A DNA stretch of 64,000 nucleotides, from NCBI GenBank assembly GCA_019752115.1, contig JAIEMN010000001.1:1-64000 (forward strand), given 5' to 3'. The position numbers were made by a program, and so were the translations under genes. Below are positions 455-18,615 of this stretch, in pieces. The notes under the pieces are model-generated. The model ran no database searches and was not told the origin of the DNA. It saw nothing but the letters and a program-made list of their open reading frames with translations. Numbering within the stretch: the stretch's first letter is position 1; the number at the start of each line of letters is the position of its first letter. Origin of the DNA: Gemmatimonadaceae bacterium (GTDB taxonomy: Bacteria; Gemmatimonadota; Gemmatimonadetes; Gemmatimonadales; Gemmatimonadaceae).

Positions 455-632
455 CCGTCGTTGCCGGAGACGTTGCTCATAGCGTTTGAGACGGCCCACT
501 TCGCCGAAGATCACATGCTGCGATTCTCGAGACCTCCACTACGTGAGCATTAGGCATCCAAGACGAGCGCGTCGCCGACGTCGAGGTCACGAGGGTGTGC
601 GAGTACCTCAGGCATCGTTGCCACGTGAACGA

Positions 633-1334
633 TCAGACGGGCTTCGCCAGCGCATTCGCGATGTCGTCCACCGACTCGAGCGTCGCCATCGCGGTCTGCG
701 CGGAGCGATAGCGTTGTAGCACGTCAAGCATCTCAGTCATGGCAGTCATTGCGTTCACATTTGATTCCTCGACGAAGCCTTGTCGAATGTCGCGCTGTTC
801 GATCGGGACGCTCGCTCGGGTCGCGTCCGGCACGAATCGCGTGCCGCCCTCATGCTGCAGTGCGCCTACCTGTGCGACTCGTTCGAGACGTAATCGCTTC
901 AGTGCGATACCGTCGACAGACACGAGACCAGTGACATCGACGTCGATGCGGCCAACGGGCAGCGTCAGCGCGCCGCCCTCGGCTAGCACAGGATTGCCCT
1001 GCAAGTCAACCAGGCGTCGATTCGCATCCAGCGCGAACGTGCCGTCGCGGACCATGCGCTCGCCAGAAGGCGTTTGCACCACAAAGAATCCATCGCCGCG
1101 GACGGCGAGGTCAAGCGGATTTCGCGTCGGCGACAGTGGTCCTTGTGACGGATCGAGCGACGCATCAGCGGCGGACAGTGCACCATCCAACATTCGCGCA
1201 AACGGAGTTTCGGCCTTGAACCCTCGCGTCGAGATGTTGGCGAGGTTGTTGGCTAACACCGCCTGGCGGCGCTCCAGCATGCGGAGCGCCGCCGCCGCAC
1301 TCGCCGCCCCATCGGCGACTACGGGATCGGGCAT
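633..1334 (-). CDS. flgF: Flagellar basal-body rod protein FlgF-like, orphan
   Basis: 233 residues, close to the usual FlgF length. The N-terminus has the rod/hook helix with 'ANNLANISTRGFK' at about residues 27-39. The middle carries the FlgE/F/G body ('VRGDGFFVV' near 83, 'RDGTFALDANRRLVD'). The C-terminus has the 'EESNVNAMTAMTEML' rod helix (about 192-206). It should form the proximal rod of the flagellum. It stands alone: no flgG, flgA or other flagellar gene flanks it, only the metal-resistance regulator upstream (112 bp away, same strand) and a convergent M56 gene. No clear Shine-Dalgarno precedes the ATG. Being full length, it may be functional with the rest of the flagellar genes elsewhere, or a relic. 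Confidence 0.8.
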   Translation of the reverse strand: MPDPVVADGAASAAAALRMLERRQAVLANNLANISTRGFKAETPFARMLDGALSAADASLDPSQGPLSPTRNPLDLAVRGDGFFVVQTPSGERMVRDGTFALDANRRLVDLQGNPVLAEGGALTLPVGRIDVDVTGLVSVDGIALKRLRLERVAQVGALQHEGGTRFVPDATRASVPIEQRDIRQGFVEESNVNAMTAMTEMLDVLQRYRSAQTAMATLESVDDIANALAKPV

Positions 1335-1446
1335 TGTCGGTCGGGCAGGACTGGCATGTACAAATGATGCGCATCGGGGTCATTGTGGTGCGAGTAGCGA
1401 TTCGGACAACCGGTGATGAAATCGGCCGCGCCGAACGGTTCTTTCC

Positions 1447-2274
1447 TCACAACTGCATCATGAGCGCCGGTCCCATGGACTTGATCCATCCTGCGTCAGC
1501 GATGTCCGACGAGTTGAGGCGAAGCCACTTTTTGGCCTTGGCGCGAAGCGCGGCCGGCGATTCAAACTCGAGAAAGTGCGAAACCCACTCGATCCGTGCT
1601 CGTTCGCAGTCCAGCAGAAAGCCGGCGAAGATCAGGCGACTGAGCGCGATCAAGCGGATCGGGCTACCGAGCCCCGCCTCGTAGGTCAATCGACGCAGAC
1701 TTCGCTCGGAACAGTTGCACGCATTCGCCAGTTCACCCACCGTATACGACGCGTACGCCAATCGCAAGCTCGTCTTGACGAGGGCGACGGCGTGCGGCTC
1801 TACGTACGGCGCGATGGCCGCCCACACCTGCGTATAGAGCGTGCGCGGTCGATTGGCCTGAATCCATCGCACCAGCGCGTCGAAAGAGTCCCCGTCGGTA
1901 ACAGTGAACACGTCCGCAAATCCGGCTTTGGCGAGCCGCACGATCGCGGACGTCGCGAGTGCCGCGTCGAAGGCGACCGCAGCGGCAATGACATGACTGG
2001 GCGCGAGGCGCACGGCTTCACACACGCGATTCAGTTGAACAGCGTCGGAAACCGGTTCGCTCAATGCCGCCACATACACCGCCATCGGGCGGTGCTGTAG
2101 GCACTCACTCAGCGGAAACACCCCGCTGTATCGGTCGATTCGTGTTTGCGTCGCCATTCGGTTGGCGATGCGTGCGTGCCAAATGTCTGGCACGTTCCAC
2201 AACACAATCGGATCGATCCGGACACTCGATGACTCGAGAATCTGCGGCAGCGACTCTGGCGACCGCGCGCTCAT
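1447..2274 (-). CDS. AraC-family-like transcriptional regulator of the metal-efflux operon
   Basis: 275 residues. The C-terminal ~110 residues carry two helix-turn-helix segments of AraC/XylS type: a first at about 170-195 ('YTVGELANACNCSERSLRRL') and a second ending with 'FESPAALRAKAKKWL'. The first ~130 residues form a soluble alpha/beta domain with no recognisable metal-binding Cys/His cluster. The ATG overlaps the stop of the P-type ATPase gene (ATGA), so it is co-transcribed with the efflux genes and probably regulates them or a linked function. AraC-type proteins are less usual than MerR, ArsR or two-component regulators for such operons, so the effector is unclear. Confidence 0.65.
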   Translation of the reverse strand: MSARSPESLPQILESSSVRIDPIVLWNVPDIWHARIANRMATQTRIDRYSGVFPLSECLQHRPMAVYVAALSEPVSDAVQLNRVCEAVRLAPSHVIAAAVAFDAALATSAIVRLAKAGFADVFTVTDGDSFDALVRWIQANRPRTLYTQVWAAIAPYVEPHAVALVKTSLRLAYASYTVGELANACNCSERSLRRLTYEAGLGSPIRLIALSRLIFAGFLLDCERARIEWVSHFLEFESPAALRAKAKKWLRLNSSDIADAGWIKSMGPALMMQL

Positions 2275-4751: not shown

Positions 4752-4754
4752 GGG

Positions 4755-7700
4755 TTAGCTCGCGAGCGGTGAGGGTGTCGTCAGGTCAGAGCGTCGCTCG
4801 AACATCTGATACAGGAGCGGTAGCACGAGCAGCGTGAGAAGCGTGGCGGTTACCAACCCGCCAATGACCACGGTCGCGAGCGGCCGCTGCACTTCTGCGC
4901 CTGACCCGGATGACAACGCCATCGGGATGAATCCGAGCGACGCAACGAGCGCCGTCATGAGTACCGGACGAAGTCGTGTCATCCCGCCCTCTCGAACGGC
5001 GTCGTCCAGCGACCGGCCGGACTGACGGAGCTCATTGATGTAGCTCACCATCACCACGCCGTTCAGCACGGCGACACCGAAGAGCGCGATAAATCCGACA
5101 CCAGCGGAGATTGAGAACGGCATGCCGCGCAACAGCAGCGCGACCACGCCTCCCACCGTCGCCAGTGGAATGCCAGTGAAGACAAGGGCCGCTTGTCGCA
5201 ACGAGTTGAACGTCGCGAAGAGCAGCAGGAAGATCAGCAGCAACGAGACCGGCACTACGAGCATCAGTCGACGGGTGGCGCGTTCGAGATTCTCAAACTG
5301 TCCGCCGAACTCCGGGCGATAGCCGCTCGGAAGTTTCACCCTGCCCTGCTCGAACAGCGCACGCACATCGGTGACAAAACTGCCGATGTCGCGACCGCGC
5401 ACATTGCCCTCCACAATCAGAAGGCGCGAACCGTTCTCGTGGCTGATTTCAGCAGGGCCGGCAACTTCCTGGACGCTGGCGAGCTGGCCGAGCGGCACCC
5501 GTTCGCCGCCGGGAGTGCTGACCAGAATAGCGCTGACACTGGACGCACTCTGCCGAACGGCAGCCGGGAATCGCGCCGTGAGTGCGAAGCGACGTTGCCC
5601 TTCGAGCACTTGTGAGATGTTGGAGCCGCCAAGCGCCTCCACGACCTGCATGACATCCGCGGCGTTCACACCGTATCGCGCCAGTTGCTCAGGAATCACG
5701 CTGATCTGCAATTGCGGCAAGCCTTCGAGCTGTTGAGCCTTGAAGCCAGTCGCGCCAGGAAGCTTGCTGACCGCCGACACCACTTCGTCGCCGAGCCTGC
5801 TCAGCGTCGCGAGATCGTCCCCGTAGATCTTGATCGCCAGATCGCTACGCACTCCAGCGATCAGCTCGTTCACGCGGAGTTCGATAGGTTGGCTAAAGCT
5901 GAACACGAGGCCTGGAATCTTCGCCAAGGCCGTCGACATCCTGGCTTCCAGATCTGCCTTGTTCGACGCTTTGATCCACTTGTCTTCGGGCGTGAGCATC
6001 ACGAGGATGTCACTGACGTTCACGCCCATCGGATCGGTCGCGATCTCGGCACGCCCTGTCTTTGAGACGACGTCGACGATCTCGTCTGGAAATTCGTCGC
6101 GTAACACTTTCTCAAGTTGAGAGGTCTGACGCGTACTCTCCTCGAGTGAAACGCTCGGCAAGCGCAGCACTTGAAGCGCGAAGGAGCCTTCGTCGAGTCG
6201 CGGAATGAACTCAGAGCCGAGAAACGGCACCGCCCCGAGCGCGGCGACCACCATGACGGCCGACGCCAGCATCACGGGACGGCCGTGTGAGATCGTCCAC
6301 TCGAGTGCTGGCGCGTACACCCGCTTCGCACGCTTGACCAACCAGACATCCTTCTCTTCAACGTTGCCCTTGAGAAAGAAGGAAATCAGTACTGGCGTGA
6401 GCAGAAACGTGAGGATCAGCGATCCGACGAGCGCGAAGACCACCGTCAATGCCATCGGCTTGAACATCTTGCCTTCGACGCCCTGCAACGTCAGGATCGG
6501 CAGATAGACGACGATGATGATGCCGACGCCAAATAGGATGGGACGTGCGACTTCGGCGCACGCGTCAAGCACCGTGTGCAAGAAGCCCTCGTTCTCGTTC
6601 CGATGTCCCAGCCGTCGCATGGAATTCTCAACCATCACGACCGATCCATCGACGACGAGCCCAAAATCGACGGCGCCAAGCGACATCAAACTGCCAGCGA
6701 TGCCCGCTTTGACCATCGCGCTGACCGCGAAGAGCATCGAGAGCGGAATGGCGAGCGCCACGATGAACGCCGCTCGCAGGTTTCCGAGTAGCAGGAACAA
6801 TACGACGATTACCAGCACCGAGCCTTCGACCAGATTCTTCTCGACCGTGCCGATCGTGCGTTGCACGAGGTCCGTACGATCGTAGAACGTGGTCATCGAC
6901 ACACCGTTTGGGAGCGTGCGCGCGGCCGCCGCCACTTTCTCCTTCACGGCACCGACCACCGTTCGCGCGTTCGACCCGATACGCATCATGACGATGCCGG
7001 TCACGACTTCGCCCCGACCGTCCTTCGTAACCGCGCCCTGTCGAATCGTCGAGCCGATCACGACGTCGGCAACGTCACCGACTCGCACCGGTGTGCCATC
7101 GCGACTGGTGACGACGACTCCACGGATCTGATCCAGGCTCTGCACCTGTCCGACGCCTCGAATGATCAGCTGTTCGGCGCCACGCGTGAGATAGCCGCCA
7201 CCCGCGTTCTGATTGTTGCGCGAGACGGCATCGAGCACCTGCTGCAACGTGACGCCGTATTGTACCAGCGCCTCGGGCCGCACGAGGACTTGATACTGCT
7301 TCTCGAAGCCGCCGAGCGTGTTGACTTCCGCCACGCCAGGCACCGTGCGCAGCTGTGGCGCGATCACCCAGTCCTGCAACGTGCGCAGCGCGGTAGAGTC
7401 CTGGCGAAAGCTGTCGGCCGCGGCGATGTTCGCCACCACGGCGTACTGAAACACTTCGCCGAGGCCAGTGGACACCGGTCCCATCTCCGGTGATCCGTAT
7501 GCACTCGGAATCTGCTCGCGCGCCTGTAGCAGTCGTTCCTGAACCTGCTGGCGCGCAAAATAGAGGTCCGTGCCCTCGTTGAACACGACCGTCACTTGTG
7601 AGAGGCCGAACTTGGAGATCGAACGAATCTCCTCCAGCTCCGGCAAGCCGAACATCGCCAGCTCGACGGGTAGGGTGACCTGGCGCTCGACTTCGACCGG

Positions 7701-7868
7701 CGAAAGCGCTGCGGCGTTCGTATTGATCTGTACCTGCACGTTTGTGACATCGGGCACCGCGTCGATCGGCAGTCGAAGCGCGGACCATACTCCTGCGCCC
7801 GCCAACAACGCGGTAAGCGACATGATTAGTAGTCGCTGTTTGAGGACAAAGCCAATTAGTCCGCGCAT
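4755..7868 (-). CDS. czcA: Heavy-metal efflux RND transporter, CzcA/CusA family
   Basis: 1037 residues, full length for an HME-RND pump. The N-terminus has the first membrane helix and the 'LPIDAVPDVTNVQVQ' porter start typical of CzcA/CusA. Helix 4 carries D-F-G-x-x-x-D-G...E-N at 401-415 (proton relay and HME signature). The C-terminal block has the expected helices and the 'RLRPVLMTALVASLGF' segment. It works as a trimer in the inner membrane, coupled to the adaptor and outer-membrane factor encoded just upstream (3 bp gap). The DFG...DG...EN form fits Zn/Co/Cd or divalent pumps better than a confident Cu/Ag call. The symbol indicates family only. Confidence 0.9.
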   Translation of the reverse strand: MRGLIGFVLKQRLLIMSLTALLAGAGVWSALRLPIDAVPDVTNVQVQINTNAAALSPVEVERQVTLPVELAMFGLPELEEIRSISKFGLSQVTVVFNEGTDLYFARQQVQERLLQAREQIPSAYGSPEMGPVSTGLGEVFQYAVVANIAAADSFRQDSTALRTLQDWVIAPQLRTVPGVAEVNTLGGFEKQYQVLVRPEALVQYGVTLQQVLDAVSRNNQNAGGGYLTRGAEQLIIRGVGQVQSLDQIRGVVVTSRDGTPVRVGDVADVVIGSTIRQGAVTKDGRGEVVTGIVMMRIGSNARTVVGAVKEKVAAAARTLPNGVSMTTFYDRTDLVQRTIGTVEKNLVEGSVLVIVVLFLLLGNLRAAFIVALAIPLSMLFAVSAMVKAGIAGSLMSLGAVDFGLVVDGSVVMVENSMRRLGHRNENEGFLHTVLDACAEVARPILFGVGIIIVVYLPILTLQGVEGKMFKPMALTVVFALVGSLILTFLLTPVLISFFLKGNVEEKDVWLVKRAKRVYAPALEWTISHGRPVMLASAVMVVAALGAVPFLGSEFIPRLDEGSFALQVLRLPSVSLEESTRQTSQLEKVLRDEFPDEIVDVVSKTGRAEIATDPMGVNVSDILVMLTPEDKWIKASNKADLEARMSTALAKIPGLVFSFSQPIELRVNELIAGVRSDLAIKIYGDDLATLSRLGDEVVSAVSKLPGATGFKAQQLEGLPQLQISVIPEQLARYGVNAADVMQVVEALGGSNISQVLEGQRRFALTARFPAAVRQSASSVSAILVSTPGGERVPLGQLASVQEVAGPAEISHENGSRLLIVEGNVRGRDIGSFVTDVRALFEQGRVKLPSGYRPEFGGQFENLERATRRLMLVVPVSLLLIFLLLFATFNSLRQAALVFTGIPLATVGGVVALLLRGMPFSISAGVGFIALFGVAVLNGVVMVSYINELRQSGRSLDDAVREGGMTRLRPVLMTALVASLGFIPMALSSGSGAEVQRPLATVVIGGLVTATLLTLLVLPLLYQMFERRSDLTTPSPLAS

Positions 7869-7871
7869 GGC

Positions 7872-9107
7872 TCAGCCCTCCTCGCCGATTTCGTCTTTCA
7901 CGAGCTCTGAGCGAAGCGCGAAGGCTCCAGTTGTCACCACACGTGCGCCAGGTGCGAGCCCTTTGAGGATGACTACGCGTCCGCCGTCGATGGTGTCACC
8001 GACCTCCACGCGAACGGCGCGAAACTCGCCAGCCTTGGCTCCGGGTATGAACACCGCGGTGCCTTCCTTCAGCTTCTGAATCGCTGACTGCGGCACCACG
8101 GCGAGCGCCGTTCCGTTGCCACCCACTTGCAGCGTTCCGCTCGCGAACATTCCCGGCTTGAGCGCCCGATCGTCGTTCGGCAGTTCGATACGCGCGCGTG
8201 CAGTGCGGCGCTGCGGATCGACGATATCAGCGAGGTAGATGACGCGACCGTTGAAGACACGATTCGGATACGAGCCCACGGTCACGGTCGCGCGCTGTCC
8301 GGCGCGCACTCGCGAGAGATCGCGTTCGAACACGTCGAGCTCGATCCACACGCGGCTCAAGTCAGCAATGGTGAAGAGCGAATCGTTTGGCGTCGTGGTC
8401 TGGCCCAGGCTCGCACGGCGCGCTACGACGACGCCACCGAACGGCGCGACGACGTCGAAGTGGCCGCCGGTACCGTGTCCAGCGCCGAGGACTGCCAGCC
8501 GATCTTCCGCACTGCGGAGCGCCGCTTCGTTGCGCCGGACTTCGGCCTCCGCGTCAAGCAACTCCTTTCGGCTCGAAATGCCCTGCGTGGCGAGTCGCTG
8601 CTCGCGGTCGTAGTTCTCGCGCGCAATGCGAAGAAGCGCGGTAGCCTGCTTCTCATCGGCTCGAATCTGGCCGACCTCTGGACTCTCCAGCTCCGCGAGT
8701 ACTTGGCCTCGACTGACCCGCGCACCGAGGTCTACCGGCAACGCAATCACGCGACCCAGTGTACGGGCACCGATATGGGTTACGCGATTCTGGTCGTACG
8801 TGATCGCGCCGGTTAGCGGCAATCCATTGGTAAGCGTGCTATCCGCATTTTCGACACGGATACCCGCGATGGCGGCCGCTGCCGAATCGAGTTGCACGCG
8901 CTCCGCATGCGGCGCCGCCGCACTGTTGTCTGCGGTGCTTGCGGTGGCCGCAGACGGCTTCTCTTCAGAATCCGACGACTTACCGCAACCCGCGACGCTG
9001 ACGGTGGCAAGTGCGAGCACAAAGACGATGCGTCGACGCGTCGCTGACGCTCCGATCCGAGCGGACGCGTTCGTGTGGACGCGCGAGAGAAGGCGATGCG
9101 AGGTCAT
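7872..9107 (-). CDS. czcB: Periplasmic adaptor (membrane fusion) lipoprotein, CzcB/CusB family
   Basis: 411 residues. The N-terminus has a basic stretch, a hydrophobic segment and a lipobox ending V-A-G-C (Cys41), so it is probably inner-membrane anchored. It then shows the hairpin/lipoyl arrangement of HlyD/CzcB adaptors: 'ALPVDLGARVSRGQVLAELES' (first lipoyl half), a coiled-coil helical hairpin rich in Arg/Glu/Ala (about 155-215), 'VVAPFGGVVVARRASLGQTT' (second lipoyl half), and a beta-barrel ending with 'LAPGARVVTTGAFAL'. The ATG overlaps the stop of the outer-membrane gene by 4 bp. No His-rich extension is seen. Confidence 0.88.
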   Translation of the reverse strand: MTSHRLLSRVHTNASARIGASATRRRIVFVLALATVSVAGCGKSSDSEEKPSAATASTADNSAAAPHAERVQLDSAAAAIAGIRVENADSTLTNGLPLTGAITYDQNRVTHIGARTLGRVIALPVDLGARVSRGQVLAELESPEVGQIRADEKQATALLRIARENYDREQRLATQGISSRKELLDAEAEVRRNEAALRSAEDRLAVLGAGHGTGGHFDVVAPFGGVVVARRASLGQTTTPNDSLFTIADLSRVWIELDVFERDLSRVRAGQRATVTVGSYPNRVFNGRVIYLADIVDPQRRTARARIELPNDDRALKPGMFASGTLQVGGNGTALAVVPQSAIQKLKEGTAVFIPGAKAGEFRAVRVEVGDTIDGGRVVILKGLAPGARVVTTGAFALRSELVKDEIGEEG

Positions 9108-10519
9108 GGACGAGTCCTGGTCGTGTCAGAAGTGGTCGATGCGGGAAGGGTTCGGGGTTGTAGCGCGCCCGTCGCGGCGTCCAGCTGCACGCGGGCGGCG
9201 TGTTGCGCCAACCACGCGTCCCAGTAACCCAGTTCCGCATCCAGTAGCTGATTGCGTAGAAGCAGCAGTGTCGGGAGGGCGATCTTACCGGCTTGAAAGG
9301 CCGTGTCGAGCAAGCCACTATTGCGGCGCGCCGGACCTAGCACGGTCTCGGTGTAGATCGCGAGCTCGGCGGAGGCCGCCTGATACGATTGCAGCGCGGC
9401 GCTCACATCGGCGCGCAGTGCAAATCGCATCGCGTCGAGCTCGCGAAGCGACTGCGTTTCGAGCGCGCGACGCTGTGCAATCACGCCTTGGTTGCGATTG
9501 AACATCGGGAGCGACACACCTAGCGATGGACCGAACCGCGGATAAGCAGGTCCGCCGGTGACCGCTTCTAGCCGACGCTCGGCGAACACCCCAAGCTGCA
9601 GATTCGGGATCCACTCGCGGCGCGCGAGCGACGTCAGCGCCGCGGCCTCCTGCACCGCAGCCCGTTGTGCCTGGAGATCAGCGCGCGTCGATGCCGCCAC
9701 GACGAGCAACGAGTCGGCGGAGAGCTGTGGCGCGCTAACGCCTTCGGCCTCAGCGTCGATCAGACGAAAGGTCATCGTCGCTGGCAGTCCGAGCTGTGTC
9801 GCGAGCGCCACACTTGCGACAGCGGCTTCGCGCCGCGCCGCGAGTACGCGAGCGCGAGCGCGCCCGACTTCAATCTCCGCGAGATTCGCGTCGAGCTCAC
9901 TGATCTCGCCTTCCCGCAGCTGAGTGCGCACGGCGACTCCAAGCCGCTCGTTCAGCACGAGCAGATCGCGCGCCAGCGTCTCACGCCGCTGTGCGGAGAC
10001 GGCGCGAAGAAACGCCACGCTGGCATCGGCCACGGTCAATCGCGCAGCGTTGAGCACGGTCGCATCCACGCGCGTGACTCCGCGCTTGGCCGCTGCGACA
10101 CGTTGACCACGTTGACCAGCGATCTCGAGCTCCTGCGCGAGCGTGATCGTTCCAGGCTCGTCAGAATTGCCGCTGATCAATCCGTTGAGCTGCATCTGCA
10201 CGCTTGGATTGAACGGGAGCAACTTCGACTGCTGCAGTGCGCCCCGCGCGATCGCCGAGTTTTCCCGTAGTGCGAGGAAGCTCGGATTGCGTTGGAGCGC
10301 GAGACGCTGGACTTCGCTAAGTGTGAGGTCGACCGAATCGGCGCTGGCCCGCAAAGCCGACTGCGCAGCGGCTGCGCCGACCGGCCACGACAGGAGCGAG
10401 AAGAGCGCCGAGACGACGAGCGCGTGGTACAACGACCCGGCGGCGTGCGAGGGCGCGTTTGCTCGCGTGGATCGCAGGAAGCTCACCGGCACGCGAGTGC
10501 CGGGAACGGATGTCCCCAT
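9104..10519 (-). CDS. czcC: Outer-membrane factor of the efflux system, CzcC/TolC family
   Basis: 471 residues from the chosen ATG. An upstream in-frame ATG at 10642 gives 41 more residues, but the 10519 start is preceded by GGAG about 8 bases away and begins the only good signal peptide (hydrophobic core, then A-A-A-A-Q-S). Two outer-membrane-efflux repeats follow: 'LTLSEVQRLALQRNPSFLALREN' opens the first and 'LAEIEVGRARARVLAARREAAVA' is in the second, with the helical hairpin 'VSAALQSYQAASAELAIYTE'. It forms the trimeric channel through the outer membrane for the RND pump. It is separated from the leader gene by a 182-base spacer holding a strong hairpin. Confidence 0.85.
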   Translation of the reverse strand: MGTSVPGTRVPVSFLRSTRANAPSHAAGSLYHALVVSALFSLLSWPVGAAAAQSALRASADSVDLTLSEVQRLALQRNPSFLALRENSAIARGALQQSKLLPFNPSVQMQLNGLISGNSDEPGTITLAQELEIAGQRGQRVAAAKRGVTRVDATVLNAARLTVADASVAFLRAVSAQRRETLARDLLVLNERLGVAVRTQLREGEISELDANLAEIEVGRARARVLAARREAAVASVALATQLGLPATMTFRLIDAEAEGVSAPQLSADSLLVVAASTRADLQAQRAAVQEAAALTSLARREWIPNLQLGVFAERRLEAVTGGPAYPRFGPSLGVSLPMFNRNQGVIAQRRALETQSLRELDAMRFALRADVSAALQSYQAASAELAIYTETVLGPARRNSGLLDTAFQAGKIALPTLLLLRNQLLDAELGYWDAWLAQHAARVQLDAATGALQPRTLPASTTSDTTRTRP

Positions 10520-10650
10520 AAAAATCTCCAGAGAACGCACGCACGCGCCCGACCGAGAAGCGGCCGGCACGAAGAACGTGCGATGAACGGCTATCGGGTG
10601 ATGGCTCTTGCGCGGTCGACCGCATGTACGCGGGACCAACACGACGCTGT

Positions 10651-10693
10651 CGAAAGCGGCGTCGACCGAGGGCGTTCCTCGGTCGCGCTTTCG
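10651..10693 (-). terminator. Strong bulged hairpin between leader gene and czcC
   Basis: Outer arms CGAAAGCG (10651-10658) and CGCTTTCG (10686-10693) enclose inner arms CGACCGAGG (10663-10671) and CCTCGGTCG (10677-10685), with a 4-base bulge and a 5-base loop: 17 base pairs in total. It begins 9 bases after the leader-gene stop. No T-run follows on the minus strand, so it may be an attenuator, an mRNA-processing or stabilising element, or a Rho-assisted terminator. Confidence 0.5.
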
Positions 10694-10701
10694 TCAGTGG
10701 A

Positions 10702-11151
10702 TCAGGCGATCAGCGCCCTGGCCGGCGGCCGCAGCCCCGGCGCTCGCTCGACACTCGTCGGGAGATCATCCACAGTCGTGGGCACGGTGGCCCAGTCGTT
10801 CGAGGAGTCATTGAGCCCGCCGACACGCACGGGCACACCGCCATGCACATGCATGCAGTGACACACGTGCGCGCTGTGCGGATCTTCGCCGAAATCGTCG
10901 GCGTGCAGCGGTACGTCGGAACGGGCGTCTATGTGCACCAGCGCCGTAAGGACACCATCGCTGCAAGCGGTCACTGCAATTGCCGGCGAAGCGGAGGTGC
11001 GCACCGCGACGGAACTCCGCGATGCCTCGCGTTCATGCGCCTCGCCGAAAACTGGCTCCGTGACCCCGAGCATCACCGCCAACGCCAAAAGCGCCGCGAT
11101 AGCGCGACGCAGTGAGACGCGGTGAATAGTACGGCGTAGCGAAGAGAGCAT
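10702..11151 (-). CDS. Small secreted protein with CHC/His metal-binding motif, first gene of efflux operon (CzcI-like position)
   Basis: 149 residues. The N-terminus is a signal peptide (basic start, 'AIAALLALAVMLGV' core, cleavage near A/G-E-A). The mature part has one striking cluster near residue 92: H-S-A-H-V-C-H-C-M-H-V-H, i.e. two Cys and five His within 12 residues, which looks like a soft-metal site. The rest is low complexity with no domain I recognise. It occupies the position of CzcI/DUF2946-type periplasmic proteins at the head of czc operons, and metal sensing or buffering is inferred from that. A long hairpin follows its stop. Confidence 0.6.
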   Translation of the reverse strand: MLSSLRRTIHRVSLRRAIAALLALAVMLGVTEPVFGEAHEREASRSSVAVRTSASPAIAVTACSDGVLTALVHIDARSDVPLHADDFGEDPHSAHVCHCMHVHGGVPVRVGGLNDSSNDWATVPTTVDDLPTSVERAPGLRPPARALIA

Positions 11152-11273
11152 GATATACGGAGGACGCCCTGCAGATCGGTTTGGTCACCATCTTCAGTGA
11201 TTCGCCGCCGCACTTGGAACGATAGTGACGCGCGAGCCGAATGGCAATCCGAGGTCTTTTCGCTTTTGATAGC

Positions 11274-11305
11274 GACCTAACCGAAGGTCAACGAAATATT
11301 TTCGT
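11274..11305. promoter_or_regulatory. Two candidate operator dyads upstream of the efflux operon
   Basis: GACCT-N6-AGGTC lies at 11274-11289, and a 15-bp AT-rich palindrome ACGAAA-TAT-TTTCGT at 11291-11305. Both lie about 120-155 bp before the leader-gene start and 15-50 bp from the left end of the IS element. They are the only clear dyads in this intergenic region. Regulator unknown. Confidence 0.35.
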
Positions 11306-11324
11306 GTAGGGACTATAGAGACTA

Positions 11325-12446
11325 GTGGGTCGTAGGTGAAATGTGGATGGCACGAGAGTTGCAGTATCGGGCGGTATGTTTACCCCTACGATGGATCTCG
11401 TGCTCGCCCCTGAGGATCGCCGCACTCTCGAGCAGATGCTGCGGCAGACGACGCTGAGCCAAGCGATCGCCAAGCGGGTGCGCGTCGTGCTCGCGCTGGC
11501 CGATGGCGACAGCTACGCCACGATTGGCGCCCGGTTCGCGTGCACGGATCGCTTCATCGCGATCTGGAAGCGCCGCTTCGTGGACGGCGGCGTCTTGGCC
11601 CTCGCGGATGCCCCGCGAGCGGGATGGGGCCATGGCATCACGGCCGCGCTGGAGGCGAAGATCGTCCGCCTCACGCTGCAGACCCAGCCGCCCACCCCGC
11701 TGACGCACTGGTCGAGCCGGCGCTTGGCGGCGAAGCTCGGTGTGGCGCACACGACGGTCACGACCGTGTGGAAGCGGCATGGCCTGAAGCCGCATCGCCT
11801 CGAGCGGTACAAGGGCAGTCCAGATCCCGACTTCGAGACAAAGGCCGCCGACATCATCGGGCTCTACATCGACCCGCCGGTCAATGCGGTGGTGTTCTGC
11901 GTCGATGAGAAGACGGCGATTCAGGCGCTGGATCGCACCGATCCCGTGTTGCCGCTGCGGCCCGGCCGGGCTGAAGCCCACGGCTTCGAGTACGTGCGCC
12001 ATGGGACGCGCTCGTTGTACGCCGCGCTCGACGTCGGCACCGGCCACGTGCAGGGCAAGGTCGCCGCGCGCCACACGAGCGCCGAGTTTGTGGACTTCCT
12101 CGAGACGGTGACCCGCTCGGCGCCCCGCGGCAAGGCGGTCCACTTCGTCGTCGATAACCTGTCGGCGCATAAGACCCAAGCGGTGAAAGACTGGCTCGCC
12201 GCGCACCCGCGCGTGACGATGCACTACACCCCGACCTATAGCAGTTGGCTCAATCAGGTGGAAAGTTGGTTCGCGCGCATCGAACGCGACTGCATCGCGC
12301 GCGGCATTTTCACCTCGACCACCGATCTGACGCGCAAGCTGCTCCGCTACATCAAGCTCCACAACGAAACGTGTCAGCCGTTTGTGTGGCGGTATCGCGA
12401 CCCCACCCGTCGCATGCCCGCTACACGTAAATCAACTACGACCCAC
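11325..12446 (+). mobile_element. Complete IS630-family insertion sequence
   Basis: The 1122-bp element starts GTGGGTCGTAG and ends with the exact complement CTACGACCCAC. The outer identity continues through ACTAGT on both sides (11321-11335 versus 12436-12450), consistent with TA target duplication (11323-11324 and 12447-12448) inside a CTAG site, as expected for IS630/Tc1-mariner transposition. Beyond the perfect 11-bp tip the ends stay partly matched for a few bases. It carries one intact transposase gene on the plus strand and lies 170 bp upstream of the divergent metal-efflux operon. Confidence 0.9.
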
Positions 12447-12449
12447 TAG
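11376..12449 (+). CDS. IS630 family transposase
   Basis: 357 residues from the ATG at 11376; an in-frame ATG at 11343 would add 11 residues, and 11391 is also possible. The N-terminus has a helix-turn-helix ('DSYATIGARFACTDRFIAIWKRR') and a second winged-helix segment ('AKLGVAHTTVTTVWKRHGLK'). The DDE catalytic residues are in 'VDEKTAI' (Asp), 'VVDNLSAHK' (Asp) and 'SSWLNQVESWF' (Glu), in the IS630 spacing. The last codon before the stop is ACT and the stop is TAG at 12447-12449, whose TA is the target duplication. The gene appears intact, so the element may still be active. Confidence 0.9.
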   Translation: MFTPTMDLVLAPEDRRTLEQMLRQTTLSQAIAKRVRVVLALADGDSYATIGARFACTDRFIAIWKRRFVDGGVLALADAPRAGWGHGITAALEAKIVRLTLQTQPPTPLTHWSSRRLAAKLGVAHTTVTTVWKRHGLKPHRLERYKGSPDPDFETKAADIIGLYIDPPVNAVVFCVDEKTAIQALDRTDPVLPLRPGRAEAHGFEYVRHGTRSLYAALDVGTGHVQGKVAARHTSAEFVDFLETVTRSAPRGKAVHFVVDNLSAHKTQAVKDWLAAHPRVTMHYTPTYSSWLNQVESWFARIERDCIARGIFTSTTDLTRKLLRYIKLHNETCQPFVWRYRDPTRRMPATRKSTTTH

Positions 12450-12450
12450 T

Positions 12451-13018
12451 CAGGTCGGTGTCGCTACGCTGAAAGAGCGGCCGCGATGCCCATCTGACGA
12501 ATGAATTCTTCAGTTCTCGCGATGGCAATCGCGAAACTCATGTCGGCCGGAATCGATTCTGGTTTTCCGGAGACTCAGTGAGTTGAGTCGCTCCGCGACC
12601 AACGCTCCGCTGGTGACAAAAAGTCGCGGGTCGCCATGATCCTCATGAGATGTCACCGCGCCGGGCCGCATCGGTCGCCGGGCCCGACGAGGCGGGCGCT
12701 CGGGCAGCGCGTGCTGTTGACGCCAGCAGCGGTTGTGCGGTCCGAAGATCGCGGATCGCGGAGGCTGACCCTGTCAACGGTGGGACATCTCCTGCGTCGC
12801 CTCGGTTGCGTGACGCTGCGGCCCTACGAAACCGCAGCGCTGGCAGCACACCGGGCTGAGGCACCTGCGACCGAGAAGGCTCACCGCTCCACAGCGCATC
12901 GCGCTGGACCGCTCCCCTGCTTCATCGCGGTCTGCAACACATTTCGTGCACACTCGGCAAAGGGTTGTCAGCCGGGATTGAGCCGTCTTGGAGCTTGAAC
13001 AACCCGTCCGGCAGCTCC
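12451..13018. other. 568-base region without a convincing gene; two hairpins
   Basis: Short open frames here have compositions I cannot distinguish from chance. One minus-strand frame (from about 12671 to 12515) reads plausibly for ~50 codons but matches nothing I know. Two hairpins are clear: TCGCGAT-GGCA-ATCGCGA (12517-12534), and CGGA/GACTCA pairing with TGAGTC/TCCG (12568-12595, with a 2-base bulge). The 3' half is GC-rich with no visible signal until the dyad at 13019. Confidence 0.4.
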
Positions 13019-13035
13019 CTTTACGGCAGGTAAAG
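13019..13035. promoter_or_regulatory. Candidate copper operator upstream of copC
   Basis: Perfect dyad CTTTAC-GGCAG-GTAAAG, 63 bp before the copC ATG. A dyad with the same outer pattern (TTTA, then G, ending GTAAA) lies at 16336-16352 between the second NTF2-like gene and copB. The shared layout suggests one regulator for both copper transcription units. Confidence 0.45.
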
Positions 13036-13097
13036 CGTCGGGTATCTTTCTCGTCATCATCGCAAGACTCTGTTCAAACACTTTCCGGGCCCGATAC

Positions 13098-13493
13098 ATG
13101 CTTGCCTTCGCTTCTCTTGGACTCGCGTTTTCGCTCCTGCTTTCACCGGTGCCACTGCCGACGGTCCCGTATACGCCGATGTCGGTGACGCTGCGTATCC
13201 TGCCGCACGCGAAGCTCAAGAGTTCGTTGCCCGCAGCGGGGGCGAGTGTCGCGGCCCCCAAAGAGCTGCGCCTGACGTTCAGTGAAGCGATCGAGCTCAA
13301 GATGTCGCGCGTGTCGTTGTGGCAGGGCACTACCGACACCCATGCCCTCGGCGAGCTGACCGCGGACGGCGGTGAGACACTCGTGGCGCGCGTCGTCAAG
13401 CCGTTGGCCAAGGGGGCGTATACGGTCAAGTTCACAGTGGCCGGCGAGGACGGCCACCCGATGAGCGGGTCGTTCACCTTCATGATCCAGTGA
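13098..13493 (+). CDS. copC: CopC-domain periplasmic copper-binding protein
   Basis: 131 residues: a signal peptide, then the CopC/YobA immunoglobulin-like fold. Diagnostic features are 'PHAKLKSSLPAAGA' after the leader (the His is the expected Cu(II) ligand at the start of the mature domain), 'LRLTFSEAIE', 'SRVSLWQ', and the closing 'VAGEDGHPMSGSFTFMI' with the conserved D-G-H-P-x-x-G motif. It should bind or deliver copper in the periplasm. Its stop overlaps the next start (TGATG), so copC, the NTF2-like gene and the PepSY gene form one operon. No CopD gene is adjacent, so delivery to a CopD importer is not supported here. Confidence 0.88.
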   Translation: MLAFASLGLAFSLLLSPVPLPTVPYTPMSVTLRILPHAKLKSSLPAAGASVAAPKELRLTFSEAIELKMSRVSLWQGTTDTHALGELTADGGETLVARVVKPLAKGAYTVKFTVAGEDGHPMSGSFTFMIQ

Positions 13494-14011
13494 TGCCGGC
13501 CATGCGAATTTCGGGGCGGGTGTTGCCGGTCTTGCTCGCCAGTTTCGTCTTGAGCGGTGGCTCCCTCGCCGCACAGCGCCCAACCGCCGATGCCGACCGC
13601 GCGGTCCGCGCGGTGATCACGGCCGTGTTCTCCGCGCAGGAGCGAGGCGACATGGCGGCGTTGGACACGCTGTACGCGGGTGAGGCGCTCACCATTTTCG
13701 AGGGCGCCGGCGTGAACCGCGGGTGGGCGGACTATCGGGATCATCATCTCGGACCCGAGCTCAAAGAGATGAAGGAGTTTCGGTATCGTCCCATCGAGAT
13801 CGATGTGCACGTGGACGGTGCCACCGCGTGGGCCACCGTCAGCTATGCGTTGCAGGCCAAGATGGGTGATCGCGCCGTCGATAATTTCGGTCGCGGGACG
13901 GTGATCCTGGAGCGCAAGGGGAGCGGGACAACGGGCCGATGGGTCGTCCGCCACTCGCACACCGCGTCCCGTGCTCGTCGCGCGTCGGATCCGCCAATGC
14001 CCGGTGCGTAG
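13493..14011 (+). CDS. Secreted NTF2-like (DUF4440/SnoaL-type) protein in copper operon
   Basis: 172 residues from the ATG overlapping the copC stop; a GTG one codon earlier and an ATG three codons later are alternatives. The signal peptide ends near 'SLAAQ'. The body follows the NTF2-like cone fold: a helix with 'ITAVFSAQERGDMAALDTLYA', 'WADYRDHHLGPELKEM', then beta strands with 'ATAWATVSYALQAKM' and 'TVILERKGSG...WVVRHSHT'. No catalytic residues can be assigned, and such domains often bind small ligands or act in unknown periplasmic roles. A second, diverged NTF2-like protein is encoded at 15832-16299, so the pair flanks the PepSY protein. Confidence 0.7.
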   Translation: MPAMRISGRVLPVLLASFVLSGGSLAAQRPTADADRAVRAVITAVFSAQERGDMAALDTLYAGEALTIFEGAGVNRGWADYRDHHLGPELKEMKEFRYRPIEIDVHVDGATAWATVSYALQAKMGDRAVDNFGRGTVILERKGSGTTGRWVVRHSHTASRARRASDPPMPGA

Positions 14012-14042
14012 GTCGCGCGCATCGGAGGCGGAGATATCATCG

Positions 14043-15758
14043 ATGGGACGTGCCCTGCGCACGTCCCATCTCGCGCGTTGGCATCGGTGGGGCGGCATGC
14101 TCTTCACCATTCCACTGCTCGCCTGGATGGTCTCGGCCACCGCGATGACGCTTGCTACCGCCGGGGCGTCGAATGGTCTTGCCGGTGTGTTCACGCTCCG
14201 GCCCACCAATTCGATTCCGCTACCGCTCGAGCGCGCGCCGTGGACGCCGGCGGCCATTCTCAAGCTCGCCGCTCCTGACGAGGCGAAGGTTTTCTCCCTT
14301 CGACTCGAGTCACGCGGCCCCTACATGTGGTACGTCGTGAAGACGGGGCCGAATGCGCTCGCGCGCACATTCGACGCGCGCACGGGGAAGCGTCTGGACC
14401 CGTTACCGGATTCGCTGCTGACCGCCGTGGCCAACGAGGCGTTGGTTGGCAGCCGTGTCGTGGAACTGACGTCGGCGCCCGAGGCCAATCGCTTCTATCT
14501 CGGCGGGCCAGTTTCGGCCGTGCGGGCCCGGCTCGAGGGACAGCAGCGCGCGACGCTCGTGCTGTCGCGCGACGAGGGGCGTACGCTTCGTCGCTTCGAC
14601 GAACGCGCCGCGACCTTCGAGTGGTGGTATCGGCGCTTTCATGTGGTGCAGTACACCGAGCGGCTCGCGCTGTGGACGTCGCTGCTGTACGGCCTTGGGA
14701 TGGCGTTGGTGGGGACGACCGTACTCGGGTTGTGGTTGCTGTGGCGGCGACGATCGCGGTACGCGCTTCGCGCGACCAGCGTCACTCCCGTCGAGGCCGG
14801 AAGTTGGACGGATGCGCGTTGGTGGCATCGGCTGGCGGGTGGCACGATCGGTGGAGTGCTCGTGATTCAGCTGGCCGTTGGCATGTACCTCTGGCTGTGC
14901 CTCGGGCCGCTCGAGCACGCATTCCGCGGCACCGCCAGCATCGCGGCTGACTGGCACGGCGGAGTCCCAACGGACGCCCCATTGGCGGACCCGGCCACTG
15001 TGCTCACGCGCATCGCCAACACTTCGGCCACTGGCGACGTACGGGCGCAGGCCATCGAATGGCGCCGCCTCGGGGATCGAGACGTGTGGATGGTCACCTG
15101 GCGCCGGGACCGTCCCCCGATCGTCTACGACGCGCGTACCGCGACGCCGCTGCCTACACTGCGGCCCGATCAGGCCGGCGCGATTGCGCAAGGGCAAGTG
15201 GTGGGACGCCCATCCTTCTTCTTGGTGGGATCCGGGCCACAGCTCGTGACGGATCTGAATCGCCCGGTGGAGGCGTACCGTTTTCGATTCGCGGACCCGT
15301 GGACGTCGGATATCTACGTCTCGCAGGCCACGGGTGACGTCGTTCAACGGCGCCCGCGGTTCTGGCGATTCTTCGACCCCTTGCTGGCAGCGCACACGCT
15401 CGCCCTGTCTGGCAACAGCCTCGTCGATCATCTGGTCTTCGCCGTCACGCAAGGCGTGCTGTGGGCGGTCCTTGTCACCGGCTGGGTCATGCAGCGGCGG
15501 CGATGGCAGCGCTCAGGGGAAACCGCTGTGCGAGAATCGCGCGAGGACGGCAGTTCGACGCGGCCGTCCCTCGGAGAGGCGGGCGCCGTGCGCGCACTCG
15601 CGCGTCAACGCATCGCGGACCGTGTCGCCCAGCGTCTGGCGCTAGTCCTTCCGGTACTGCTCGCCTCCTGGCTGCTGTGGAAGCTCGCGGCGACAGCGGT
15701 ACGCGATGCCGCCGTTCGGCCAGGGGCTGCCGCTCCCGTCGAAGCGGGCCACCACTGA
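14043..15758 (+). CDS. PepSY-associated TM helix protein (PepSY_TM family)
   Basis: 571 residues. The ATG at 14043 has GGAG about 10 bases upstream and begins at the usual 'LARWHRWGGMLFTIPLLAWM' first helix; a longer frame from 13971 adds unlike sequence. Membrane segments are near residues 17-37, 216-240, 273-295, 471-490 and 530-548. Periplasmic PepSY-like loops lie between them ('FSLRLESRGPYMWYVVK', 'YRFRFADPWTSDIYVSQATGDVVQRRPRFWRFFD'). The family is often linked to iron or copper uptake and reduction, as in FegB/PiuB-type proteins, but its activity is not settled. Here the linkage to copC and copB suggests copper handling at the inner membrane. It ends in a hairpin shared with the convergent gene. 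Confidence 0.8.
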   Translation: MGRALRTSHLARWHRWGGMLFTIPLLAWMVSATAMTLATAGASNGLAGVFTLRPTNSIPLPLERAPWTPAAILKLAAPDEAKVFSLRLESRGPYMWYVVKTGPNALARTFDARTGKRLDPLPDSLLTAVANEALVGSRVVELTSAPEANRFYLGGPVSAVRARLEGQQRATLVLSRDEGRTLRRFDERAATFEWWYRRFHVVQYTERLALWTSLLYGLGMALVGTTVLGLWLLWRRRSRYALRATSVTPVEAGSWTDARWWHRLAGGTIGGVLVIQLAVGMYLWLCLGPLEHAFRGTASIAADWHGGVPTDAPLADPATVLTRIANTSATGDVRAQAIEWRRLGDRDVWMVTWRRDRPPIVYDARTATPLPTLRPDQAGAIAQGQVVGRPSFFLVGSGPQLVTDLNRPVEAYRFRFADPWTSDIYVSQATGDVVQRRPRFWRFFDPLLAAHTLALSGNSLVDHLVFAVTQGVLWAVLVTGWVMQRRRWQRSGETAVRESREDGSSTRPSLGEAGAVRALARQRIADRVAQRLALVLPVLLASWLLWKLAATAVRDAAVRPGAAAPVEAGHH

Positions 15759-15781
15759 CCACGCGCGACGCCGCGCGTGGT
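15758..15781. terminator. Bidirectional hairpin between convergent genes
   Basis: ACCACGCGCG-ACGC-CGCGCGTGGT, a perfect 10-bp stem with a 4-base loop, starting at the last base of the PepSY gene stop codon and lying 50 bases past the convergent NTF2-like gene. No T-run on either side, so termination is likely but not certain. Confidence 0.55.
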
Positions 15782-15831
15782 GCATGAGATCGAAGACGCC
15801 TGGCGGCCGCTTCGCGGGGCTGCGCCTCTCT

Positions 15832-16299
15832 CTACGCCCGCCGACGGCGCGACGACCAGTGCACCGCGCGGATGCTCCACCCCGAGGCGTCCTTGGAGAG
15901 CACCATCAACTCGGCCATCTCCGAGCCATTCGATCCTTCGGCGCCACTTGGCGGCGTGACCGACTTGGATACCACGTAGGCGGTGCCGCCAATGAGGCGA
16001 ACCTGCACCAGGCTGCGCACGGCCTTGGAATCCTTGCTGGCCGCCATGTCGGCACCGAGGTGATGTCCGAGATACTCGGCGCGAGTCTGAATGGCGCCGC
16101 TCTCGAGCACCATGACATCAGTGGCGAGCAGGGCGGTTGCGCGAACTGAGTCGCCGGCGGCCAAGGCGGCGTGAAACTGCTCAACGGCGGCGACGGCCGC
16201 GGTGGAATCACTGCGGTTGGATTGCGCCGAGAGCGGAGCGGCAACACCGCACAACGTCAGCGCGGCAGTGAGGGTGGCGAGGCGAACGAGTCGGGTCAT
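15832..16299 (-). CDS. Second secreted NTF2-like (DUF4440/SnoaL-type) protein
   Basis: 155 residues. The signal peptide ends at 'APLSAQS'. The NTF2-like fold follows: 'VAAVEQFHAALAAGDSVRATALLATDVMVLESG', 'TRAEYLGHHLGADMAA', 'VRLIGGTAYVVSKSV' and 'MVLSKDASGWSIRAVHWSSRRR'. It keeps the same helix-strand order and the 'Y-x-x-H-H-L-G' element as the protein at 13493-14011, so the two are probable paralogues. It is transcribed divergently from copB, with a dyad between them, and convergently to the PepSY gene. Copper linkage is inferred from context only. Confidence 0.72.
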   Translation of the reverse strand: MTRLVRLATLTAALTLCGVAAPLSAQSNRSDSTAAVAAVEQFHAALAAGDSVRATALLATDVMVLESGAIQTRAEYLGHHLGADMAASKDSKAVRSLVQVRLIGGTAYVVSKSVTPPSGAEGSNGSEMAELMVLSKDASGWSIRAVHWSSRRRRA

Positions 16300-16334
16300 G
16301 GCGGCGCGGAGGTTGGGGGAGGATTCGGCATCGG

Positions 16335-16353
16335 AGTTTATGCAGCGTAAACT
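16335..16353. promoter_or_regulatory. Candidate copper operator between NTF2-like gene and copB
   Basis: Dyad AGTTTA-TGCAGCG-TAAACT, 36 bp before the minus-strand NTF2-like start and 114 bp before the copB start, so it could control both directions. It shares the TTTA-Y-G...GTAAA layout with the dyad upstream of copC at 13019-13035. Confidence 0.45.
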
Positions 16354-16467: not shown

Positions 16468-18615
16468 ATGAACGCGTCTCATAGCCATGGTGCCCACGAC
16501 CCAACGCGGACACAGACCGATGATCCGTCTGCGCATCACGTGGATGCCGCGGGGCACACAAGCGAAGCCACTCTCCGCGCGGGAGAGCCGGCTCACCGCG
16601 ATCACGGTACGCACGACAAGCACGCGGGCCACTCGGTGGCGATGTTCCGCGACAAGTTCTGGCTTTCGCTGCTCCTCAGCGTGCCGACGCTCGTCTGGGG
16701 GCACATGCTGCAGGACGCGCTCGGCTATCATGCGCCGTCGTTCGCCGGCTCGCGCTGGATTCCGGCGGTGTTCGGCACCGCCGTGTTTGCGTACGGTGGC
16801 CCTCCGTTCTTGCGGGGGGCTGTCGGCGAGCTGAGGGATCGAATGCCCGGCATGATGTCGTTGATCTCACTCGCCATCGTCGTGGCGTTTGTGTTCAGCA
16901 CGGCGGTCACGCTCGGCTACCCGGGCATGCCGCTGTGGGAGGAACTCGCCACGCTCGTGACCATCATGCTGCTCGGTCACTGGATGGAAATGCGATCCAT
17001 CGACCAGGCTCAGGGGGCGCTCGGAGCCTTGGCGAAACTGCTGCCGGATCAGGCCAGCCGCGTGCATGTGATGGGGGACCAGGAGCACGTGGAAGTCGTG
17101 CCGATAAGCGCGCTGGCCGTCGGCGATATCGTGCTCGTACGCCCCGGGGCGCACGTCCCCGCTGACGGCGTCGTGCGAAGCGGCACGAGCACGCTCGATG
17201 AGTCGATGATCACCGGCGAATCGGTTCCCGTAAGCAAGGCGGTCGGAGACCGTGTGATTGCCGGAACCGTCAACGGCGCGGGCGCGCTACGCGTGGACGT
17301 GACGGCCGTCGGTGAGCGCACCGCTCTTTCGGGCATCATGCGGCTCGTCGCGGACGCTCAGCAATCGAAATCACGCGCCCAGATGCTGGCCGACCGCGCG
17401 GCGCAGTATTTGACATGGGTGGCGCTCGGAGCGGGAGCGCTCACGTTCATCGCGTGGATCGCGGCGGGTGCGAGTGGCGCGAAGGCCGTGGAGCGGTTGG
17501 TCACGGTGCTGGTGATCGCGTGCCCGCACGCGCTCGGGCTCGCGGTTCCGCTCGTCCTCGCGATCTCCACCACGCTCGGAGCTCAGAGCGGGCTCCTTGT
17601 ACGTGATCGTCGCGGACTGGAGAACGCACGGTTGCTCGACACCGTGGTGTTCGACAAGACCGGAACGCTCACGCTCGGCGACCATCGTGTCGTGGATCAA
17701 TTCACCGCGGACGGAACCACGGTCGATGCAGCGCTGCAGCTGGCTGCGGCGGTCGAGCATGACGCCGAGCACCCGGTGGCCAAGGCCATCGTTAAGAGCG
17801 CGAATGACCGTCAGCTGGGTCCGCTCCGAGTGCATGATTTCGAGGCGATGCCGGGAATTGGCGTGAAAGCGATGGTGGACGGGCGCGTATTGTACGTCGG
17901 AGGTCCGACCCTTCTGGAACGGCTGTCGGTCTCACCGTCGGCTGACGCAGCGGCATTCATCGAGGCCGGGGCGCGCACAGGGCAGGGGACCATACATCTC
18001 GTCGAGGAGGTCCCTGAGAGTTCCCACGCGACTCATCGCTTGCTGGCGTCGTTCACGGTCGCGGACGCTGTGCGTCCAGAGTCTGCCGAGGCCGTACGGG
18101 CATTGCGCGCGGCTGGCATACAGGTGGTGATGATGACCGGCGACACGCGTGCGGTTGCCGAGGTGGTCGCGAAGTCTCTCGGCATCGACCGGGTGTTGAC
18201 CGGGGTGATGCCCGACGGCAAGGCGGCCGAGATCCAGCGGTTGCAGCAGGGAGGGCATCGCGTCGCGATGGTGGGCGATGGCGTGAACGATGCACCGGCG
18301 CTCGCCATGGCCGACGTCGGAATCGCGGTCGGCGCCGGTACCGACGTGGCGGTTGAAGCCGGTGACGTCGTGCTGGTGCGGAGTGATCCGCGAGACGTCT
18401 CTCGCATTCTGACGCTCTCTCGGGTGACCTATCGCAAGATGGTGCAAAACCTGTGGTGGGCGGCCGGATACAACGTGGTCGCCATCCCGCTGGCCGCCGG
18501 GGTGCTGGCCCCATGGGGCATCACGCTGTCCCCGGCATTCGGCGCGGTCCTGATGTCGGTGAGCACGATCATTGTGGCGCTGAACGCCCAGTCGTTGCGT
18601 CGGACAGTGCTGTGA
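16468..18615 (+). CDS. copB: Copper-exporting P-type ATPase, CPH type (CopB, P1B-3)
   Basis: 715 residues. The ATG at 16468 has GGAGG five bases upstream; an earlier in-frame ATG at 16384 lacks one. The first ~60 residues are His-rich (about twelve His before the first helix), as in CopB proteins, instead of a CxxC HMA domain. Core motifs: TGES (249-252), C-P-H in the sixth helix (352-354), Asp396 in DKTGT, an EHPVA nucleotide-site motif, and [14 protein letters not shown] before the last two helices. CPH defines subgroup P1B-3, associated with Cu(I)/Cu(II) and sometimes Ag export across the inner membrane. It is the second metal ATPase in the window and clearly distinct from the SPC type at 2271-4751. 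Confidence 0.93.

Follow-up and report, generated by a model that had tools for sequence, protein, structure and literature searches.

An operator-like dyad before copper genes and a proposed BlaI-M56 circuit in Gemmatimonadaceae

Introduction

The first 64,000 nucleotides of contig JAIEMN010000001.1 (Gemmatimonadaceae bacterium, assembly GCA_019752115.1), hereafter the window, carry a block of copper genes in which two 17-bp dyads stand before copC and before a gene for a copB-like copper-translocating ATPase, and the question raised by this locus is which regulator, if any, reads them. A sequence-only reading of the same DNA had proposed that both sites serve one copper regulator, and had remarked that the block encodes no regulator of its own, which agrees with the list of open reading frames (ORFs), where we see none within it. 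Here we suggest, with a probability that we put at roughly three in four, that a copper-dedicated repressor of the BlaI family uses the dyads as operators and that repression is lifted through a copper-activated, BlaR1-like M56 protease.

Results

Dyads in the window and in orthologous loci

Dyad 1 (CTTTACGGCAGGTAAAG) and dyad 2 (GTTTATGCAGCGTAAAC) have the common layout that had been noticed at both copper transcription units (coordinates in Table 1). Allowing up to one mismatch, the pattern TTTAYG-N4-GTAAA has four matches in the window, namely these two dyads on both strands and nothing else, compared with 0.04 on average and at most 2 in 100 dinucleotide shuffles of the window; both dyads are real and beyond chance. 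Dyad 1 ends 63 bp before copC, and dyad 2 is flanked by the divergent DUF4440 gene at 37 bp and by the first ATG of the copper ATPase ORF at 32 bp. By sequence reading, a possible -35 box (TTTACG, 13020-13025) overlaps the left arm of dyad 1, with a possible -10 box (TATCTT) at 13043-13048. A layout of the MerR/CueR kind was set aside on sequence, since dyads with a readable -10 box overlap the -35 box and do not sit in a long spacer.

The expectation that the dyads would be kept in orthologous loci held in both that we compared, L045 (genome G025) and L040 (genome G001, contig C40). By inspection, L045 begins with genes for an outer-membrane efflux protein, a multicopper oxidase, a BlaI-like repressor and an M56 protease, followed by a dyad and copC, and continues with SnoaL/DUF4440, a membrane protein, a reverse DUF4440 gene, a second dyad and the copper ATPase. 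Positions 1-455 of the window align collinearly with L045 12381-12835 at 93.4% identity, and positions 13017-19150 with L045 12840-18975 at 98.1%. Judged from this alignment, the left-edge ORF of the window is the 3' end of the M56 protease gene found whole in L045; it scores 205 bits against our M56 profile (A2), and Pfam alone gives no match in the fragment. The M56 peptidase that had been placed at the left edge is confirmed by profile and by collinearity. Genome G001 has further M56 copies on its contigs C26, C1 and C7, of which the C7 copy has one stop.

The window's own genome (G000) is a 5.17 Mb draft in which the window lies on contig C1. This contig starts within the M56 gene, and another contig of the same genome, C40, starts at the point matching L045 8296. 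In L045 the stretch between these two points, 8297-12380, contains roughly two thirds of the M56 gene and, besides a dyad and blaI, the genes for the efflux protein and the oxidase; this DNA is absent from the rest of the own assembly except for one 32-base match; a profile search of the own genome for a copper-type blaI returned as its best match a generic BlaI at 28 bits. On the simplest reading, blaI and the 5' part of the M56 gene fall in the assembly gap between C1 and C40. A BlaI/CopY-type gene had been suggested as something to look for just left of the window: the orthologues have such a gene before the M56 gene, and in the own genome, whose assembly holds no matching stretch, it would lie in the gap.

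Distribution of the motif

Across the whole own genome, exact matches to TTTAYG-N4-GTAAA are confined to contigs C1 and C40, both of which are copper islands. The wider palindrome TTTAY-N5-RTAAA (TTTAYNNNNNRTAAA) has seven sites there, two on C1 and five on C40 and none on any other contig, and the same pattern read backwards as a control has 0 matches. The earlier reading had proposed to ask by a genome scan whether the motif clusters before copper genes: only the two copper contigs are matched, and for 5/7 exact sites a gene with a strictly copper label lies no further than 250 bp away. Gene names on C40 are by reading (Pfam results come from relatives), and so named, the dyads at 763 and 3981 precede a Met/His-rich lipoprotein-like gene and a Rieske/cytochrome b operon, that at 16890 a gene for a DUF326-type protein, those at 20563 and 28953 DUF305 genes, and that at 30021 a CopD-like gene; the site at 20563 is a further one that fits TTTA-N7-TAAA and not the wider pattern. 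Two generic BlaI genes of the own genome, G000:C11:119344 (L017) and G000:C33:29231 (L018), were considered as regulators of the dyads and set aside, because they have different upstream palindromes of their own (TACTATGTGCATAGTA and CTACGGAAGATTCCGTAG) and because the surrounding 14 and 16 kb contain no TTTA-N7-TAAA.

In a census over all loci we collected 144 sites, or 132 after collapsing repeats of the same 55-base context; it left out L057 (the G029 site, judged to be chance), L091 and L092 as repeats of L042 and L044, three G001 sites (two on C26, one on C32) and one G028 site (C1:4203734). A labelled gene (CopC/CopD, oxidase, copper ATPase, outer-membrane efflux, DUF326, DUF305, RND or BlaI) lies within 250 bp downstream of 80/132 dyads, and of 56/132 once the efflux and BlaI labels, which are less specific, are excluded; the labels come from single-linkage clustering, which merged CopC with CopD and DUF4198 with DUF4440 and placed one poor representative in the SnoaL group. 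The remaining dyads precede SnoaL/DUF4198 genes, a YYNTDAGRP family, Rieske/cytochrome genes, TonB receptors or nothing recognised. Proteins of the YYNTDAGRP family have about 290 amino acids and contain the words TDYYNTDAGRP, and their genes lie behind dyads at 13 sites (L055 9612, L056 14815, L090 7494, L180 1540 and others). A single member was scanned and had no match in Pfam; the protein is a candidate for a role in copper stress. Rieske and cytochrome b genes follow dyads at C40 3981 of the own genome, L175 3673, L160 11181 and L182 3410, a sign that respiratory genes may come under the circuit as well.

The sites give the consensus RYTTTAYGC-N-GCRTAAARY, in which R at -2 (80%) and Y at -1 (87%) lie outside the searched core. 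At +23 from the first T, TANNNT occurs in 13/160 oriented segments, compared with at most 7 in shuffled tails at any position after the dyad, and such an excess is expected if the left arm is the -35 box in part of the promoters; higher TANNNT counts inside the dyad stem from the letters of the motif itself. Called genes contain 40 of the 132 dyads, to be compared with a coding density of 0.855; this is a weak test, since the longest-ORF gene caller over-extends starts and related loci are not independent.

Co-occurrence with the blaI-M56 pair

Where a contig holds both genes, blaI adjoins the gene of a BlaR1-like M56 protease with conserved Cys and His residues. We scanned 61 genomes, the own genome included, with TTTAYKNNNMRTAAA and found matches in 17, frequently clustered. 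Our profile of the copper-type BlaI (A1) separates cleanly, its lowest copper-type match scoring 133 bits and the next match 40 bits. In this first set the motif occurs in 15/15 genomes with the whole pair or a clear part (the own genome being counted from its M56 end alone) and in 2/46 without (Fisher 1.9e-12). The two exceptions with motif and no pair are G010, where the gene behind the site belongs to a family that recurs at other dyads, and G029, where it adjoins an apparent chemotaxis gene and was judged to be chance.

A hold-out set was drawn by searching 249 Gemmatimonadota genomes with profile A2 at E <= 1e-25, which matched 32, of which 30 belong to the window's family (own genome included). 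The test set comprised the 23 new genomes with an M56 partner, one of which (G210) is apparently the origin of L093, a locus already examined earlier, and the controls were the 14 new ones among 16 listed genomes of the same family without the module, 197 further genomes with no match being left out. With TTTAYNNNNNRTAAA, 22/23 genomes with the partner had sites and 2/14 without (Fisher 5.9e-7); the sites add up to 65 in the module genomes and to 6 in the others. The module genome without a site, G155, has a blaI match that covers profile positions 112-147 only. Among the genomes without the module, G078 has five sites and no M56 match at E <= 1e-25. On its contig C96 (about 6984-7914, L188), two dyads enclose a pair of short blaI fragments that are in different frames and some 90 bases away from a dyad, and a dyad before a copC-like gene is kept beside these broken pieces.

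The repressor and the protease

The repressor matches PF03965 (Penicillinase_R) in 3/3 proteins scanned at 63.5-66.7 bits (cut-off 22.6; E 3.7e-18). Its structural model, with a predicted local distance difference test (pLDDT) score of 75, has Rv1846c, MecI and BlaI as top Foldseek matches (probability 1.00, E 3.8e-5 to 1e-3). By this profile match and by its predicted winged-helix fold, it belongs to the BlaI/MecI family. The TACA/TGTA operator typical of BlaI/MecI was not found in the dyad consensus. An (S/C)-(F/I/L/V) step of the repressors aligns with MecI N101-F102, the position of the bond named for BlaI cleavage in the portion of PMC9834060 available to us. Membership of CopY/TcrY was rejected: CopY_TcrY is the best NCBIfam match of the two repressors scanned, with scores (26.4 and 23.6 bits) far under the cut-off of 121.95, and the CxC motif occurs in 0/21 repressor sequences, which have 0 or 1 Cys each. 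Read against the CopY operator consensus RNYKACANNYGTMRNY, as given in the accessible text of PMC7253601, the dyad operator does not fit, in line with the earlier remark that the sites are unlike the CopY consensus.

The M56 protease matches PF05569 at 40.1-43.7 bits (cut-off 31) in 3/3 full proteins scanned. In the same three proteins, of 345-353 amino acids, only M56/M48 matches were found and a C-terminal penicillin-binding sensor domain was absent. The six best Foldseek matches of the protease model are BlaR1 chains, with E values from 7e-4 to 0.03, of which only the first is below 0.001, and template-modelling (TM) scores of 0.24-0.45. The spacing from HExxH to ExxxD is 41 in 14/17 M56 proteins, and in the accessible part of PMC9834060 BlaR1 H201 and E242 have the same spacing; in the outliers L046 and L090 the pattern took an earlier HExxH, and L056 has no match to the second pattern.

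Conservation of Cys and His was read from 17 of the 26 distinct M56 sequences, the complete ones, shorter sequences being dropped and columns numbered by L045. Fourteen non-catalytic Cys/His columns are conserved at 60% or above and 11 are invariant in the 17 proteins. A first group comprises H42, H56 (16/17), C61, H66, H73 and H77, and a second comprises H303, H317 (16/17), C318, H320 (15/17), H328, C331, C347 and H349. Hydropathy has strong peaks near 31 and 293 and a weak peak near 66, and together with the positive-inside rule this would place the first Cys/His group at the outer face and in the second helix, and the second in a tail outside. Among the matches listed, the weak generic M56 ones end by position 307 of the 348 in the profile, so that none of them matches the tail.

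Features of the window

The 12.56 kb of DNA that separate the M56 stop from dyad 1 are not part of the circuit. By reading, its ORFs include a P-type ATPase and RND/MFP/OMF-like (czc-like) genes, as well as a flagellar-rod-like ORF (633-1334) and a transposase-like ORF (11343-12449). Dyad 1, at the right border of this segment, remained intact. The copC product scores 90.2 bits against NCBIfam copper_CopC, slightly below the cut-off of 95.

Table 1. Coordinates of the features discussed, in window positions.
Feature	Position	Strand	Remarks
BlaR1-like M56 protease, C-terminal 150 residues with Cys/His tail	2..454	+	5' end lost at contig end
12.56 kb segment, M56 stop to dyad 1	456..13016	.	not at this point in L045/L040
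Operator-like dyad 1, CTTTAC-N5-GTAAAG	13019..13035	.	before copC; orthologous dyads L045 12843, L040 7960
copC	13098..13493	+	PF04234 CopC, Pfam E 6e-21
NTF2-like/SnoaL protein	13505..14011	+	SnoaL_3, DUF4440
571 aa protein	14043..15758	+	no Pfam or NCBIfam match; presumably a membrane, PepSY-like protein
Second NTF2-like protein (DUF4440)	15832..16299	-	Pfam E 3.3e-9; divergent from ATPase gene
Operator-like dyad 2, GTTTA-N7-TAAAC	16336..16352	.	orthologous dyads L045 16162, L040 4641
Copper-translocating P-type ATPase, copB-like	16468..18615	+	TIGR01511 564.4 bits, cut-off 397; ORF opens 16384

Discussion

From the computed motif, its targets, its co-occurrence with the pair, its place before blaI, the family membership of both proteins and their catalytic motifs, we propose the following circuit. 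When copper is lacking, a BlaI dimer would sit on TTTAY-N5-RTAAA, overlapping core promoter elements at part of the promoters, and would repress genes for copper export, oxidation and binding along with its own operon. Copper at the membrane or in the periplasm would be bound by the Cys/His ligands of the M56 protein and would activate its cytosolic zinc protease, which may then cut BlaI near the bond cleaved in staphylococcal BlaI, so that the whole regulon opens. The original suggestion that the dyads fit an operator of one copper regulator is in this way supported computationally, through their confinement to the copper contigs, their conservation in orthologous loci and their co-occurrence with the pair.

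Several points weigh against this proposal. DNA binding, repression, copper as the ligand and cleavage of BlaI are steps that we infer, and the repressor gene lies outside the own assembly and is read across from relatives. In L040 (8080-9126) the M56 copy is split over two frames relative to L045. The core of the M56 model is of fair quality and its Cys/His tail has a pLDDT below 50, for which reason we claim no metal site from it. An invariant M56 Phe, a hint of a counterpart to the BlaR1 autocleavage site (Ser283-Phe284), can be aligned with Phe284 of the wild-type chain, though with low alignment confidence, and against the F284A chain it falls one residue off. As to the targets, 52/132 dyads have no labelled neighbour, and at the hold-out loci (L158-L194) 33/66 dyads are labelled, or 22/66 without the efflux and BlaI labels, a count that takes in six sites from two genomes without the module. 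Because profiles A1 and A2 were built from pairs beside motif sites in the first set, the co-occurrence count made there is circular in part, which the hold-out count is not; the p values overstate independence, because the genomes are related. In the hold-out set the reversed control gives 18 matches in 10/23 module genomes and 13 in 6/14 others; some single sites there must therefore be chance, and the control does not track the presence of the module. Lastly, hold-out genome G073 has one site, no module and as its best BlaI a generic one at 35.5 bits.

Other explanations can be set beside the copper-gated pair. The pair might control the dyads while its M56 protein senses an envelope signal other than copper, such as thiol damage, silver or zinc. 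The sequence does not reveal the identity of the ligand, and Rieske, cytochrome and TonB-receptor genes stand behind some dyads, yet copper genes are the targets with the best labels, Cys and His commonly serve as ligands of Cu(I), and in the accounts at hand the BlaR1-like protease PetP is described as copper-activated; we regard a different signal as unlikely. The dyads might instead bind another copper regulator (CueR-, CsoR- or CopR-like) encoded elsewhere, with the BlaI-M56 pair merely one of its targets. That the dyads precede many operons besides blaI, and that G078 retains its five sites with only broken blaI pieces, would fit such a regulator. However, in both genome sets the motif can be predicted from the pair, 13 dyads stand within 250 bp before 10 blaI genes, and the 6-5-6 layout matches that of the motif of a Clostridium thermocellum BlaI found by DNA affinity purification sequencing (DAP-seq), as far as the available part of PMC8457756 describes it, so that we hold a separate regulator to be quite unlikely. 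Direct binding of copper by the repressor in the manner of CopY, with the M56 protein uninvolved, could draw on CopY_TcrY being the best NCBIfam match of two repressors, but with the scores so far below the cut-off, CxC absent and one Cys at most in each sequence, we consider it improbable. Finally, that the dyads are core-promoter elements or chance palindromes with no regulator is scarcely credible: the left arm can be a -35 box and the right arm is -10-like, and the reversed control reaches a few sites per genome in some relatives, but the flanking R-Y is conserved though outside the search pattern, and in the own genome the motif is restricted to the copper contigs and the control has no site at all.

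If the copper-gated BlaI-M56 circuit is correct, copper detoxification in Gemmatimonadota would also run through BlaR1/BlaI, a route familiar from beta-lactams and from a plastocyanin switch, and this would help to explain copper sensing in this soil phylum. The proposal yields a testable operator, a predicted regulon of several operons and a candidate metal site on a membrane protease, and copper gating of the M56 protease would be directly testable. In the open-licence PubMed Central (PMC) literature, the matches listed to us included no BlaI-M56 pair controlling copper detoxification.

Comparison with known systems places the pair among several relatives. With the Gram-positive CopY/CopR repressors it shares the repressor superfamily and copper export as a target, and it differs, within the limits of the published text at hand, in having no CxC, a score far below the CopY model and another operator. 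Similar to S. aureus BlaR1/BlaI and MecR1/MecI, it combines a PF03965 repressor with an M56 protease that has the HExxH...ExxxD spacing of 41 and a structural match; however, here a short Cys/His tail replaces the beta-lactam sensor, TACA/TGTA is lacking and the targets are copper genes. The BlaI Clo1313_0696 of C. thermocellum has a DAP-seq motif in which two inverted copies of GTCTAT are separated by five nucleotides (PMC8457756, available in part), which is the same 6-5-6 operator layout with another base sequence, and the regulon described there is one of sensing and antibiotic response, not copper.

The nearest known system, in the portions of the secondary accounts available to us, is cyanobacterial PetR/PetP (slr0240/slr0241) of Synechocystis sp. 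PCC 6803, in which a copper-activated BlaR1-like protease degrades a BlaI-like factor (PMC7896320, PMC13421787, PMC12292863, PMC10141476). Both systems have adjacent BlaI-like and BlaR1-like genes, with the copper signal and repressor proteolysis being only proposed here. In one of those accounts PetRP switches petE/petJ with a regulon of four proteins, and the accessible part of PMC10141476 describes it as being without a copper-homeostasis output and mentions BlaR homologues of unknown role in other phyla. By these descriptions the present pair is set apart in that it would target copper detoxification genes at several operons. We lean, by a little, towards the view that this pair forms, apart from PetRP, a second lineage of repressor-protease pairs that sense copper, in which an M56 protein with its own Cys/His copper receptor (one helix and a C-terminal HCxH...H.FC...CPH tail) would act across the membrane in one step, cutting a repressor whose operator is unlike the CopY and BlaI boxes of the papers cited and so opening a whole copper-detoxification regulon.

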